From Corallium rubrum (taxonomy: Eukaryota; Cnidaria; Anthozoa; Scleralcyonacea; Coralliidae), in the NCBI GenBank assembly GCA_964035015.1, contig OZ035997.1:59894285-59958284 (forward strand): DNA of 64,000 nucleotides, given 5' to 3'. The position numbers were made by a program, and so were the translations under genes. The notes under the pieces are model-generated. The model searched no databases and was not told where the DNA came from. It saw only the letters and a program-made list of their open reading frames with translations. Below, piece by piece: positions 2,560 through 56,931 of the stretch (positions are counted from its first letter, which is position 1; the number at the start of each line of letters is the position of its first letter).

Positions 2560-2946
2560 AAAGCATGTTTTATTGCCGGCAAGGACTAACAATAGATTTT
2601 GATTTCTTCAAAGGTTGCGACCAAAACTGTTTGGAAAACATTATTAAAGCAAAAGAAACTACCAACTCCTTTGATGCGTTCTTTGCTAAATCAGAAGCTG
2701 AAGCCAAATCTTTTTATTCTGTGTCTTCTACTTTCTTCTCGACATTGAAAAGTGAAACACCAGAACTTTACAAAGACCTGCTGTCGACCCACTTTCCCAT
2801 TGATCCCAAAGTTATTCAGAATCTTGAAATATTAATACAGCACTTTGGAATGGAAAAAGTGAAATCTTTTTCCTCGTTATTCCTTTCAGCAGCATTTATC
2901 AGAAGACACCAGGGTGCAAATGTATCTAAACCGGCCGCGTGTGGAG
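2560..2946 (+). CDS. Exon 1 seen of the multidomain gene: unknown helical region
   Basis: Open for about 129 codons. The acceptor is probably the AG at 2558-2559 after a pyrimidine-rich stretch; an in-frame stop lies just upstream, so the ATG at 2565 could also be a start, but no signal peptide follows it. The donor is GTATGT at 2947, phase 1. The protein is rich in helix-forming residues (AKSEAEAKSFYSVSSTFF, LEILIQHFGMEKVKSFSSLF) with two cysteines near the start and one near the end. I do not recognise the domain. The assignment to the gene rests on phase: the final G joins GA of the next exon to make glycine in a Gly-rich linker. Confidence 0.75.
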
Positions 2947-2974
2947 GTATGTATATGTGAAATAATAATGAAAA

Positions 2975-3190
2975 TTCCACATGTCAATCTCACATGTGAA
3001 TATATATATATACATATATATATATATTATTGAAAAGCATTTACCCCAAGAGCAGATCCACTCATGTGAATTTGGAACGGTCACATGTGGTATTGTCGCA
3101 TGTGAATTTGGAACCGCCACATGGGAGTCACGTATGAATGGATCACATGTGAGATTGTCACATGTGGATCACATGTGGTATTATCACATT
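2975..3190. repeat. Cluster of CACATGTG palindromes
   Basis: At least six CACATGTG or near-identical CATGTG palindromes lie within 210 bp of intron 1, mixed with an (AT)n run at 3000-3028 and a repeated ATGTGAATTTGGAACGG segment. The palindrome has the E-box form CANNTG. It looks like degenerate tandem repetition; no function can be read from sequence. Confidence 0.7.
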
Positions 3191-3236
3191 TTGTAATTAG
3201 ACCTGAAAAGCCCTAAGGGGCGGTTCTTTTTAAAAA

Positions 3237-4535
3237 TTGTATTGCATTGCATTGCATTGCGTTGTGTTGCGTTGCGTTGCGTTGTATTGCGTTGCGTTGC
3301 GTTGCATTGCGCTGCATTGCGCTGCATTGCGTTGCATTGCGTTGCATTGCGTTGCATTGCGTTGTATTGCGTTGCACTGCGTTGCACTGCGTTGCACTGC
3401 GTTGCGTTGCCTTGCGTTGCGTTGCCTTGCGTTGCGTTGCATTGTATCGTATCGTATCGTATCGTGTCGTGTCGTGTCGTGTCGTGTCGTGTCGTGTCGT
3501 GCCGTGCCGTGCCGTGCCGTGTCGTGCCGTGCCGTGCCGTGCCGTGTCGTGCCGTGCCGTGCCGTGTCGTGTCGTGTCGACCGTACCGTACCGTACCGTA
3601 CGGTACTGTACTGTACTGTACTGTACTGTACTGTACTGTACTGTACTGTACTGTACTGTACTGTACTGTACTGTACTGTACTGTACTGTACTGTACTGTA
3701 CTGTACTGTACTGTACTGTACTGTACTGTACTGTACTGTACTGTACTGTACTGTACTGTACTGTACTGTACTGTACTGTACTGTACTGTACTGTACTGTA
3801 CTGTACTGTACTGTACTGTACTGTACTGTACTGTACTGTACTGTACTGTACTGTACTGTACTGTACTGTACTGTACTGTACTGTACTGTACTGTACTGTA
3901 CTGTACTGTACTGTACTGTACTGTACTGTACTGTACTGTACTGTACTGTACTGTACTGTACTGTACTGTACTGTACTGTACTGTACTGTACTGTACTGTA
4001 CTGTACTGTACTGTACTGTACTGTACTGTACTGTACTGTACTGTACTGTACTGTACTGTACTGTACTGTACTGTACTGTACTGTACTGTACTGTACTGTA
4101 CTGTACTGTACTGTACTGTACTGTACTGTACTGTACTGTACTGTACTGTACTGTACTGTACTGTACTGTACTGTACTGTACTGTACTGTACTGTACTGTA
4201 CTGTACTGTACTGTACTGTACTGTACCGTACCGTACCGTACCGTACCGTACCGTACCGTACCGTACCGTACCGTACCGTACCGTACCGTACCGTACCGTA
4301 CCGTACCGTACCGTACCGTACCGTACCGTACCGTACTGTACTGTACTGTACTGTACTGTACTGTACTGTACTGTACTGTATCGTATCGTATCGTATCGTA
4401 TCGTATCGTATCGTATCGTATCGTATCGTATCGTATCGTATCGTATCGTATCGTATCGTATCGTATCGTATCGTATCGTATTGTATTGTATTGTATTGTA
4501 TTGTATTGTATTGTATTGTATTGTATTGTATTGTA
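3237..4535. repeat. 1.3-kb pentanucleotide microsatellite with variant blocks
   Basis: A 5-bp repeat runs uninterrupted with changing sequence: GTTGC/ATTGC types to about 3440, then GTATC, GTGTC and GTGCC types to 3579, GTACC to about 3602, GTACT for about 620 bp (around 124 units) to 4222, GTACC to 4334, GTACT to 4380, GTATC to 4480 and GTATT to 4535. The pentamer gives no stop codon in several frames on both strands, so the long open frames here are artefacts. Confidence 0.97.
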
Positions 4536-4645
4536 TGTGAAAAAGCGCTCAAAACTGGAATGAAAATGACATTTGGCAATGATCAAAATTATTCAAGTTC
4601 ATTATAAGGATTTATCTGTTAATTCTAAAATTAAACGAGACTTAC

Positions 4646-4866
4646 CTGTAAGTTGACGTTTGATTGGGATTCTACTAGTCATCAGTCAGGAACGAAGGAG
4701 TAACATGAGATGCGCGCGCGTGCAGCTCCAGGCAGTTTTCAAAGTGACTGGGTAACAGGAGTAACGGAACGAAGGAGAAGGTCGGGAGGGAAAAAATATT
4801 AGGGCATGTTACTCCCTCGTTCCTGACTGATGACTAGTAGAATCCCAATCAAACGTCAACTTTCAG
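4646..4866. mobile_element. MITE with 63-bp terminal inverted repeats
   Basis: Left arm 4646-4713 and right arm 4804-4866 are inverted copies with about three mismatches, sharing GTTGACGTTTGATTGGGATT and ACTAGTCATCAGTCAGGAAC. The 90-bp centre is GC-richer and non-coding. Confidence 0.9.
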
Positions 4867-4869
4867 TTT

Positions 4870-55331: not shown

Positions 55332-55667
55332 ATGGCGGAATCTTTTGACGACTGTGGTCCTTTGCTGGAACTAGAAGACTTTTCTGACGACTCTTGCAAA
55401 GATTTGGAAGTTTCCATGAGCGATCTGAGTCTTTACGACGGTATTAAGTGTTGATCAAGTGGCCATGCATGTTGTGAGTTGTTTACATATTTTACTTGAA
55501 ACATCGATCTTCTGCAACTGAGCGATCAGGTTTTTAGTTCTGGTGTATTGTTATCTTCAGATGATCAAACAAGAACAAGCACGCCGTTAGAAGGTAGTCC
55601 TATTGGAGGAAAACATCATCTCACGCCTTCATCGAAACAAACCAACCTCGAACCAAGAACCGTCTGA
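55332..55667 (+). CDS. Small two-exon acidic protein inside the 1.1-kb element
   Basis: Exon 55,332-55,440 starts MAESFDDCGPLLELEDF and ends with donor GTATTA. Exon 55,561-55,667 starts after TTATCTTCAG, phase 1, and ends at TGA. The product would be 71 residues, very acidic at first, then Ser/Thr/Pro-rich (TSTPLEGSPIGG). The ATG context GGAAATGG is good. No domain is recognised; it may be the N-terminal part of a transposon or captured host gene. An (AT)n run follows at 55,690-55,739. Confidence 0.45.
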
Positions 55668-55781
55668 GGCCTTATCGGAATTACAAAAATATATATAAAT
55701 ACATATATATATATATATATATATATATATATATATATAATTTCAAAAACAGATCATTCAAGCACGAAATATATGAAATAG

Positions 55782-56183
55782 TTATGCGGTAACCTTTGAT
55801 TTCCATTTGGAGGGAGAAGATATGTATCTCAACGTTTCTTGGCTATGTAGATGCCGCATGGTTAAAGCAAATTTTGCCAAATCTTTTGCGGTGTACTCCT
55901 TCTTATTAATAAATATTCGAAAATGTTGACCTAGTTCGCTCTCTTCAGAGAATATCAACTTTTCGACGCATTGAACCTCTGGACAGATGGTTTTGTGCGC
56001 TTGGAACGCAACGCGGAAGGGCCTGTAAATATTCACGCAAATTTCTGTTCGATCCGCCATTACAGAACACGCCATCTTGGCCGCAGGATTTGCCAGTCGC
56101 TTCTCCCCTTTTCCCCTTCCCGCCTTCCCTCGCGCCCCCTCAGCATAGGCCCCACTGATGGCCCCCCTCTCAAATTTACTCAT
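55782..56183 (-). CDS. Unrecognised 133-residue ORF inside the 1.1-kb element
   Basis: Balanced protein-like composition, including EICVNIYRPFRVAFQAH, CPEVQCVEKLIFSEESELG and AKDLAKFALTMRHLHS. The first 45 residues are Gly/Ala/Arg-rich and may be untranslated; MACSVMADRTEI contains alternative starts. It converges on the two-exon ORF. No family recognised; it could be a captured gene fragment. Confidence 0.45.
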   Translation of the reverse strand: MSKFERGAISGAYAEGARGKAGRGKGEKRLANPAAKMACSVMADRTEICVNIYRPFRVAFQAHKTICPEVQCVEKLIFSEESELGQHFRIFINKKEYTAKDLAKFALTMRHLHSQETLRYISSPSKWKSKVTA

Positions 56184-56449
56184 TCTTGAAAAGCGACTGG
56201 GGACGAGGCAGGCAATTATCCATGACCTGAAGCGAAACTAGACTCCCAATCGTCCAGTGGTTCTTCTGATGCACGCTCGTAAACCCTTCGGAAATACGAA
56301 TAAGACTTCTGAAGTATACTTATTAGCTTTTCGCCTTGATCACGTTATTGACAAAAACATTCGCACACACACACACACACACACACACACACACACACAC
56401 AACCGGGGTAATGACATAGCGGTTATAGTTTAGCAACCAGTATCCGCAA

Positions 56450-56745
56450 AAACGCTGACACCGTTTTGCTGGAAATTTATCTCGGAATCGAACTACAAAC
56501 AAAATAAAACGTTTTGTCCTTACGTCGCCCCTAGTGAAGCCTCTTGGTTTTACTTGAAAGACTTGAAATATTTGCAACTATTATTGGCTTATTTTTATCG
56601 CAAAATCAAATACAACATTTCACGTATTCTACAAATTAGTAGCATTCTAACGATTTCTATTTTATTTTTGTAGCATAAATTCTGAAGAATTGATAGCGCT
56701 TTATCAAAATGGCTCTGCAAACCTTAAGGAAGACCTTAATCTATT
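56450..56745. mobile_element. Second copy of the TTAAGGTCTTCG MITE, next to exon 12
   Basis: Matches 40,655-40,905: GCTGGAAATTTATCTCGGAA, ATCGCAAAATCAAATACA, TTCTATTTTATTTTTGT, and the end AAACCTTAAGGAAGACCTTAA. Its end lies about 18 bp before the exon 12 acceptor. Confidence 0.85.
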
Positions 56746-56763
56746 TCACTATATTCTTTTTAG

Positions 56764-56931
56764 ATTGTACTGACCCAAAGTATTTTTTTACCTTCACGAG
56801 CAAGAATTCATTTCAGCTGAAAAACAAATGTCTTCGACCAATCAGCATCAGATGGCCGGAAGGAACCGATTTGATTAGTTTCCGTTGTGAAGACTATATA
56901 AGTACCTACAATATTCTCGATGTCATAAAGG
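56764..56931 (+). CDS. Exon 12 (last seen): second ricin-like segment
   Basis: Acceptor TTCTTTTTAG ending 56763, donor GTAAGC at 56932; phase 1 in and out. Incoming G plus AT makes aspartate: DCTDPKYFFTFTSKNSFQL, KNKCLRPISIRWPEGTDLI and SFRCEDYIS. The spacing C-x-x-x-x-x-F-x-F/L-x-x-x-x-S-F/I-x-x-x-x-x-K-C-L-R-P resembles the module in exon 11. No stop, so the gene continues beyond the window or into unrecognised exons. Confidence 0.85.

Follow-up and report, generated by a model that had tools for sequence, protein, structure and literature searches.

In the transglutaminase-like superfamily, the third catalytic residue is an aspartate and sometimes an asparagine. MITSUBA-1 and related entries of the Protein Data Bank (PDB) are, we assume, beta-trefoil lectins of the R-type/MytiLec kind. 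F-type lectins, among them MsaFBP32 and the eel lectin AAA, share the fucose motif HX24RXDX4(R/K), as given in PMC5712786. A predicted mosaic gene of Corallium rubrum, which bears on these systems, is described here from a window of 64,000 nucleotides (the whole stretch analysed, G000:C1:59894285-59958284, on the forward strand of contig OZ035997.1, hereafter C1). Comparison of duplicated copies indicates that most of one gene, A, lies in the window (2614-28826, more of its exons being situated upstream, outside the window), together with the first ricin-like exons of a second gene, B. The predicted protein runs from ricin-like modules through a helical region, a Cys-His core with a helical tail, an F-type-lectin fold and a PA14-like module to a short C-terminus. 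An earlier sequence-only reading had joined twelve exons into one gene with the ricin-like modules last. The explanation that on the whole fits best, and that we hold with somewhat more confidence than doubt, is a split into two genes, each a mosaic opened by ricin-like modules, whose product would act outside the cell as a Cys-His hydrolase or transamidase on glycoconjugates.

The genome searched comprises 474,352,983 bases in 312 contigs. A whole-genome search with exon 4, which encodes most of the core, returns four matches, every one on C1: gene A of the window, the next tandem copy B (59971030, plus strand, 96% identical to A), an inverted copy C (59844699, minus strand, 89%) and an isolated copy D (95134488, plus strand, 84%). 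The same four places, and none besides, are found at E up to 1 when a bacterial relative serves as query. A and B lie head to tail with their exons 4 spaced 63.5 kb apart, and their surroundings are alike over long stretches, mostly at 90-95% identity. The ratios of nonsynonymous to synonymous divergence (dN/dS), calculated with a Nei-Gojobori script, are 0.348 for A-B over 14 exons, and 0.298 for A-D and 0.318 for B-D over 13 exons; in the B-D comparison dN exceeds dS for e6, with few changes. Judged from these values of about 0.3, the shared exons appear to be under purifying selection.

The revised exons (e0 to e13) and associated features of the window are as follows.

2614..2946, plus strand: gene A e1, start of the helical region; phase-1 acceptor common to A, B and D
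9774..9931, plus strand: gene A e2, helical region; splice sites and frame kept in A, B and D
11752..12098, plus strand: gene A e3, helical region and start of the Cys-His core; bacterial homology starts within this exon
13286..14562, plus strand: gene A e4, Cys-His core and long helical stretch; four genome copies and bacterial homologues
13371..13462, plus strand: GGVCG-x21-QPGHA motif with the putative catalytic Cys and His; invariant in all four copies
15928..16100, plus strand: gene A e5, first of three exons of the F-type-lectin fold; Pfam F5_F8_type_C over cut-off, FBP32
17405..17514, plus strand: gene A e6, second exon of the F-type-lectin fold; Pfam F5_F8_type_C, FBP32
18149..18300, plus strand: gene A e7, third exon of the F-type-lectin fold; Pfam F5_F8_type_C, FBP32
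21719..21897, plus strand: gene A e8, first of three PA14-like exons; match to Campylobacteraceae PA14
26303..26439, plus strand: gene A e9, second PA14-like exon; PA14 profile homology
27335..27501, plus strand: gene A e10, third PA14-like exon; PA14 profile homology
28795..28826, plus strand: gene A e13, terminal coding exon EMKEESSVAS-stop; the same in B, and EMKKESSVAV-stop in the same phase in D
29539..29556, plus strand: two AATAAA, candidate polyadenylation signals, in a stretch alike in copy D
43495..43537, plus strand: gene B e0, short candidate 5' exon preceding the ricin-like exons; the same 43 bases in A
45273..45503, plus strand: gene B e11, ricin-like repeats; homologous exon 5' of the core in A and C
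56764..56931, plus strand: gene B e12, ricin-like repeat; homologous exon 5' of the core in A, C and D

Much of the earlier model is recovered. Its twelve segments, with AG..GT borders and compatible phases, can be rebuilt from the sequence into 1,161 codons without a stop (about 1,162 had been announced), and copies A, B and D share the splice sites of exons 2-10. Both ends of the model, by contrast, had to be revised. The stop-bearing e13, which had been overlooked as the 3' end of the gene, comes 1.3 kb past exon 10 and is conserved in A, B and D. The pair e11 and e12 occurs twice in a 154-kb region, once inside the window (45273 and 56764) and once upstream of it, before e1 of gene A, so that the ricin-like exons belonging to gene A precede its core instead of closing the protein. 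In copy C, where the genome search scores best candidates only, both ricin-like exons lie on the 5' side of exon 4 (minus strand), and no such exon turned up on its 3' side. Copy D carries an exon 59% identical to e12 at 1.3 kb 5' of its exon 1, and nothing resembling e11 or e12 in the 57 kb 3' of its exon 10; e11 was not found in this copy, where a 5-kb run of N sits upstream. Because copies C and D have ricin-like exons at the 5' side and the conserved stop ends gene A, exons 11 and 12 are best placed as the opening exons of gene B. At the other end, the proposed border at 2560 is not conserved in D, whereas A, B and D all have the acceptor for 2614, which makes 2614 the likelier start of exon 1. 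The splice sites and frame of e0 also occur in copy D, with weak constraint (A-D dN 0.42, dS 0.50).

Intron phases help to explain how the two genes could be joined. Phase 1 is found at all module borders (e12-e1, e4-e5, e7-e8 and e10-e13) and likewise at e0-e11, e11-e12 and e1-e2, while the introns within the F-type and PA14-like modules have phases 0 and 2. Borders in phase 1 are a usual mark of exon shuffling in animals. Since the module borders share this phase, each such module can follow any other without a frameshift, and a false join of exon 10 to exon 11 stays in frame.

The Cys-His core has its closest tested relatives among bacteria. The GGVCG and GHAA boxes reported earlier are real; the exact pattern GGVCG-x21-QPGHA has a single match in the window and none in any of 100 shuffles. 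The pattern GGVCG-x21-QPGH is present in at least 119 stretches of the genome_contigs collection, all of which were compared. About one chance match was expected by our own estimate, which assumes even base composition and is low, since six chance frames were found (L047, L059, L067, L077, L148 and L149); these were dropped by eye and 113 relatives were kept. The titles of the stretches mostly name Planctomycetota, Verrucomicrobiota, Lentisphaerota and Kiritimatiellota, others being Clostridia, Actinomycetota, Campylobacteraceae and a few more. With phmmer and whole-protein E values, the gene A protein matches L103 (Phycisphaerae) best of the 119 frames, at 7.3e-29. It is followed by three proteins from metagenome-assembled genomes (MAGs) of Campylobacteraceae (L049, L054 and L097; 7.4e-26, for L054, to 2.8e-25), whose values are in part due to PA14 and F5/8C stretches; for the core stretches by themselves, a search of 80 frames gave 1e-15 to 2.3e-17. 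Values of 8.4e-25 to 2.7e-23 are reached by L045, L076, L093, L101 and L108 (Lentisphaeraceae/Kiritimatiellae), and of 5e-21 and 3.5e-19 by L132 and L141 (Verrucomicrobiota); altogether 57 of 119 frames reach 1e-3. The match of the core to L103 persists at 2.4e-21 when the nine motif residues are masked, the best of 100 shuffled queries giving 0.0078. In a tree with 75 rows (4 of them coral and 71 bacterial, the latter drawn from 80 of the at least 119 loci after leaving out 4 chance frames and 5 loci with short flanks), the coral copies group with L103, Campylobacteraceae and Lentisphaeraceae/Kiritimatiellae with support 88/84, on long branches, for which such joins may be false. Viral contigs gave 0 matches to the GGVCG-x21-QPGH motif.

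Glycan-binding-type modules recur around this core. At E up to 0.001, F5_F8_type_C is detected in 38 of the 113 relatives (3/9, 6/8, 18/59 and 11/37 by batch), PA14 in 6 (3, 1, 1 and 1) and NPCBM in 5 (0, 1, 1 and 3), counts in which some hits do not reach the Pfam cut-off and many frames are truncated where the contig or locus stops. The F5/8C module follows the core, as it does in gene A, in six F5/8C-bearing proteins of one batch of eight, and F5/8C and PA14 stand ahead of the core in L049, L054 and L097. The latter three are open frames of 1,640-1,790 amino acids with F5/8C, PA14, Cys-His core and TPR. A search of Campylobacterota with L097 (1,790 amino acids) gives matches in 23 of 298 genomes; among the matches listed, the core is covered only in the query genome. 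In L038, from a Clostridia MAG, the same core has NPCBM ahead and F5/8C behind. Unlike the coral gene, the bacterial proteins are encoded in one open frame, and their listed Pfam families include no ricin-type domain. By eye, some of them start with signal-peptide-like or lipobox-like stretches. On these comparisons, the core belongs to a so far unnamed family, which is frequent among Planctomycetota, Verrucomicrobiota and their relatives and there often accompanied by glycan-binding-type modules. The fusion is therefore less singular than the sequence-only reading held, since the core together with F5/8C and PA14 modules recurs in bacteria. Literature searches found, in the collection covered, no work joining coral, transglutaminase, F-type lectin and PA14, nor any on F-type lectin domain architecture with PA14 in cnidaria, and the available parts of PMC5712786 and PMC8195603 contain nothing on the GGVCG-QPGH family.

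Structural evidence on the core comes mainly from a model of the bacterial relative L103 and not of the coral protein (predicted template modelling score, pTM, 0.76). In this model Cys283 lies at the start of a helix and His309 at the start of the following strand. Foldseek returns nothing below E 0.001 for it. VIA-align returns mostly helical repeats and one middling match, the putative cysteine protease 3isr, with no classical transglutaminase among the matches listed. A PDB profile search with the 55-member alignment A2 of the core gives 8 sequences at E up to 1, the best being a TPR protein at 0.023, and no transglutaminase. Weak sub-threshold Pfam transglutaminase hits are seen in 3 of the 55 members of A2, and PF01841 gives one hit among 10 bacterial core segments, at 15.9 of 23 bits. 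NCBIfam assigns 0 families to 6 proteins and has no hit in the core. A structure of exon 4 predicted from the four copies only reached a predicted local distance difference test (pLDDT) value of 37 and was not used.

The recognition modules of gene A differ in how far they can be identified. The F-type domain is the clearest, with F5_F8_type_C over the Pfam cut-off in the joined protein, 2.7e-51 to fish FBP32 and 4e-25 to the eel lectin 1k12 over nearly the whole domain. The F5/8C stretches of the Campylobacteraceae proteins match it at independent E values of 0.0019 to 0.19. As its resemblance to fish lectins greatly exceeds that to these stretches, the domain was probably gained separately. 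The earlier fucolectin label holds for the domain and is doubtful for its ligand: aligned to 1k12 and 3cqo, gene A has H to S, R to A and R to Y replacements in the basic triad that binds fucose, so that the motif HX24RXDX4(R/K) is absent. B and D keep S, A and Y at the triad, B with two other nearby changes, and fucose binding by this domain is doubtful. The PA14-like module has no Pfam hit in the protein (PF07691 gives 4 genome matches, none within the window); at 1e-12 it matches a profile built from three bacterial PA14 domains, each of them above the Pfam cut-off, the best of 500 shuffles giving 0.21. The ricin-like repeats remain below the cut-off of PF00652, with 27.6 of 29 bits for exons 11 and 12 alone and 17.3 in the joined protein. 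Gene A's own e0-e11-e12 resembles MITSUBA-1 at 4.6e-7. Profile searches, which had been suggested as a check of the domains, thus confirm F5/8C, leave the ricin-like repeats short of detection, and with Pfam detect neither PA14 nor transglutaminase. The domain fusion itself is borne out, with the core, the F-type-lectin fold and the PA14-like module in one gene and ricin-like repeats in the same kind of protein; the order formerly given crosses a gene border.

Two other arrangements of the exons can be set against the split into two genes. It is very improbable that exon 10 splices to 45273 and 56764 after all, whether constitutively or in a read-through isoform. The phases would allow it, and the intron, at 17.8 kb, would be no longer than the 18.7-kb e8-e9 intron of copy B, but the stop exon lies conserved shortly after exon 10 and copies C and D yielded no ricin-like exons on their 3' side. 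Moreover, exon 12 ends in a donor that demands further exons, and the next gene-exon match downstream is exon 1 of the next copy. The phase of exon 12 would suit that junction, and a tandem array forming one giant gene of repeated units might be imagined from it, given phase 1 at the module borders and two units head to tail. This is highly improbable: the stop after exon 10 is conserved in A, B and D, and the isolated copy D and the inverted copy C each form a lone unit.

Several observations weigh against the explanation favoured here, that of two ricin-first genes encoding an extracellular Cys-His enzyme. Read-through splicing from exon 10 to the ricin-like exon of the next gene is phase-compatible. 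Two scans for a first coding exon with a signal peptide, in which ATG exons were examined for a hydrophobic start, yielded none common to A, B and D. Between A and B, dN exceeds dS in e3, e7, e8 and e12, with few changes each. With the motif masked, most bacterial frames cease to match the core, 18 of the 119 remaining at E no higher than 1e-3, and the helical N-terminal region, with E values of 0.025 (A) and 0.0069 (D) against bacterial proteins and 0.029 for the best shuffle, is not distinguishable from shuffles. Pfam does not detect PF01841 in the joined protein or in the core alone, and the place of the third catalytic residue in A2 is occupied by Q in 25 rows, H in 5, Y in 3 and a gap in 22, with no evident acidic residue. 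What had been called transglutaminase-like can thus be kept at a distant superfamily level only (PF01841, 3isr). The want of an evident acidic residue would also suit a dead enzyme retained as a scaffold or binding protein, and the F-type domain, whose fucose triad is lost in A, B and D, would offer a parallel. We consider this unlikely, because the four copies of exon 4 all keep the Cys and His boxes unchanged and the gene appears to be under purifying selection; furthermore, a Cys-His dyad, or a different third residue, can be enough for catalysis.

Under the two-gene explanation, the protein is likely to be an extracellular thiol enzyme on recognition modules, a prediction in which the extracellular location follows from the types of module and from the signal-like N-termini of some bacterial relatives. 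The ricin-like, F-type-fold and PA14-like modules would anchor the protein to surface glycoconjugates. The conserved Cys could then attack an amide bond of a bound glycoprotein, with the His acting as base, and the outcome would be hydrolysis or transamidation. A hydrolase or transamidase of surface glycoproteins is preferred on this basis, its targets being microbial or the animal's own mucus or matrix, with no choice made between them. As regards origin, the tested relatives of the core are bacterial in the collections searched, and gene transfer is only one reading of this. It is tentatively conceivable that a secreted thiol-enzyme family of Planctomycetes-Verrucomicrobia-Chlamydiae (PVC) bacteria reached an anthozoan ancestor by gene transfer. 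Introns would then have been gained and phase-1 modules (ricin-like, fish-type F-type fold and PA14-like) added round the core through animal-type exon shuffling, and tandem duplication would have followed, perhaps giving an immune or mucus-remodelling enzyme.

Other features of the locus lie outside the exons. Matches to the ricin-like exons at C88:10030-13834 score the same as copy C on C1, and this is perhaps an alternative haplotype contig. A candidate first exon at 38581 of the window is common to A and B and loses its frame in D, and conserved stretches at 41.2 kb and 42.4 kb have no open frame in common; all were set aside. A block of about 1.3 kb at 3213-4592 consists of 5-base-type tandem repeats (CTGTA and variants), with several frames open on both strands. 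A 1.39-kb tandem duplication, 34345-34995 and 35734-36384, is identical at 648 of 651 bases and carries minus-strand open frames; one stretch upstream of copy A aligns with both halves of it (34345-36384). The open frames at 1-308 and 60345-62123 resemble, by eye, pieces of a non-LTR (long terminal repeat) retrotransposon.

The gene model was corrected here by comparing duplicated copies. In such a locus, agreement of intron phases says little in favour of a join, as an exon-shuffled gene has equal phases at its module borders. The core points to an enzyme-like family that escapes the Pfam and NCBIfam models searched and that in bacteria is repeatedly found with F5/8C and sometimes with PA14, and which in this coral is accompanied by related modules. 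On the evidence of homology, the protein is a new variant within a class of modular, enzyme-like proteins found mainly in bacteria. Should it prove active, it would represent a new thiol enzyme directed at glycoconjugates outside the cell.

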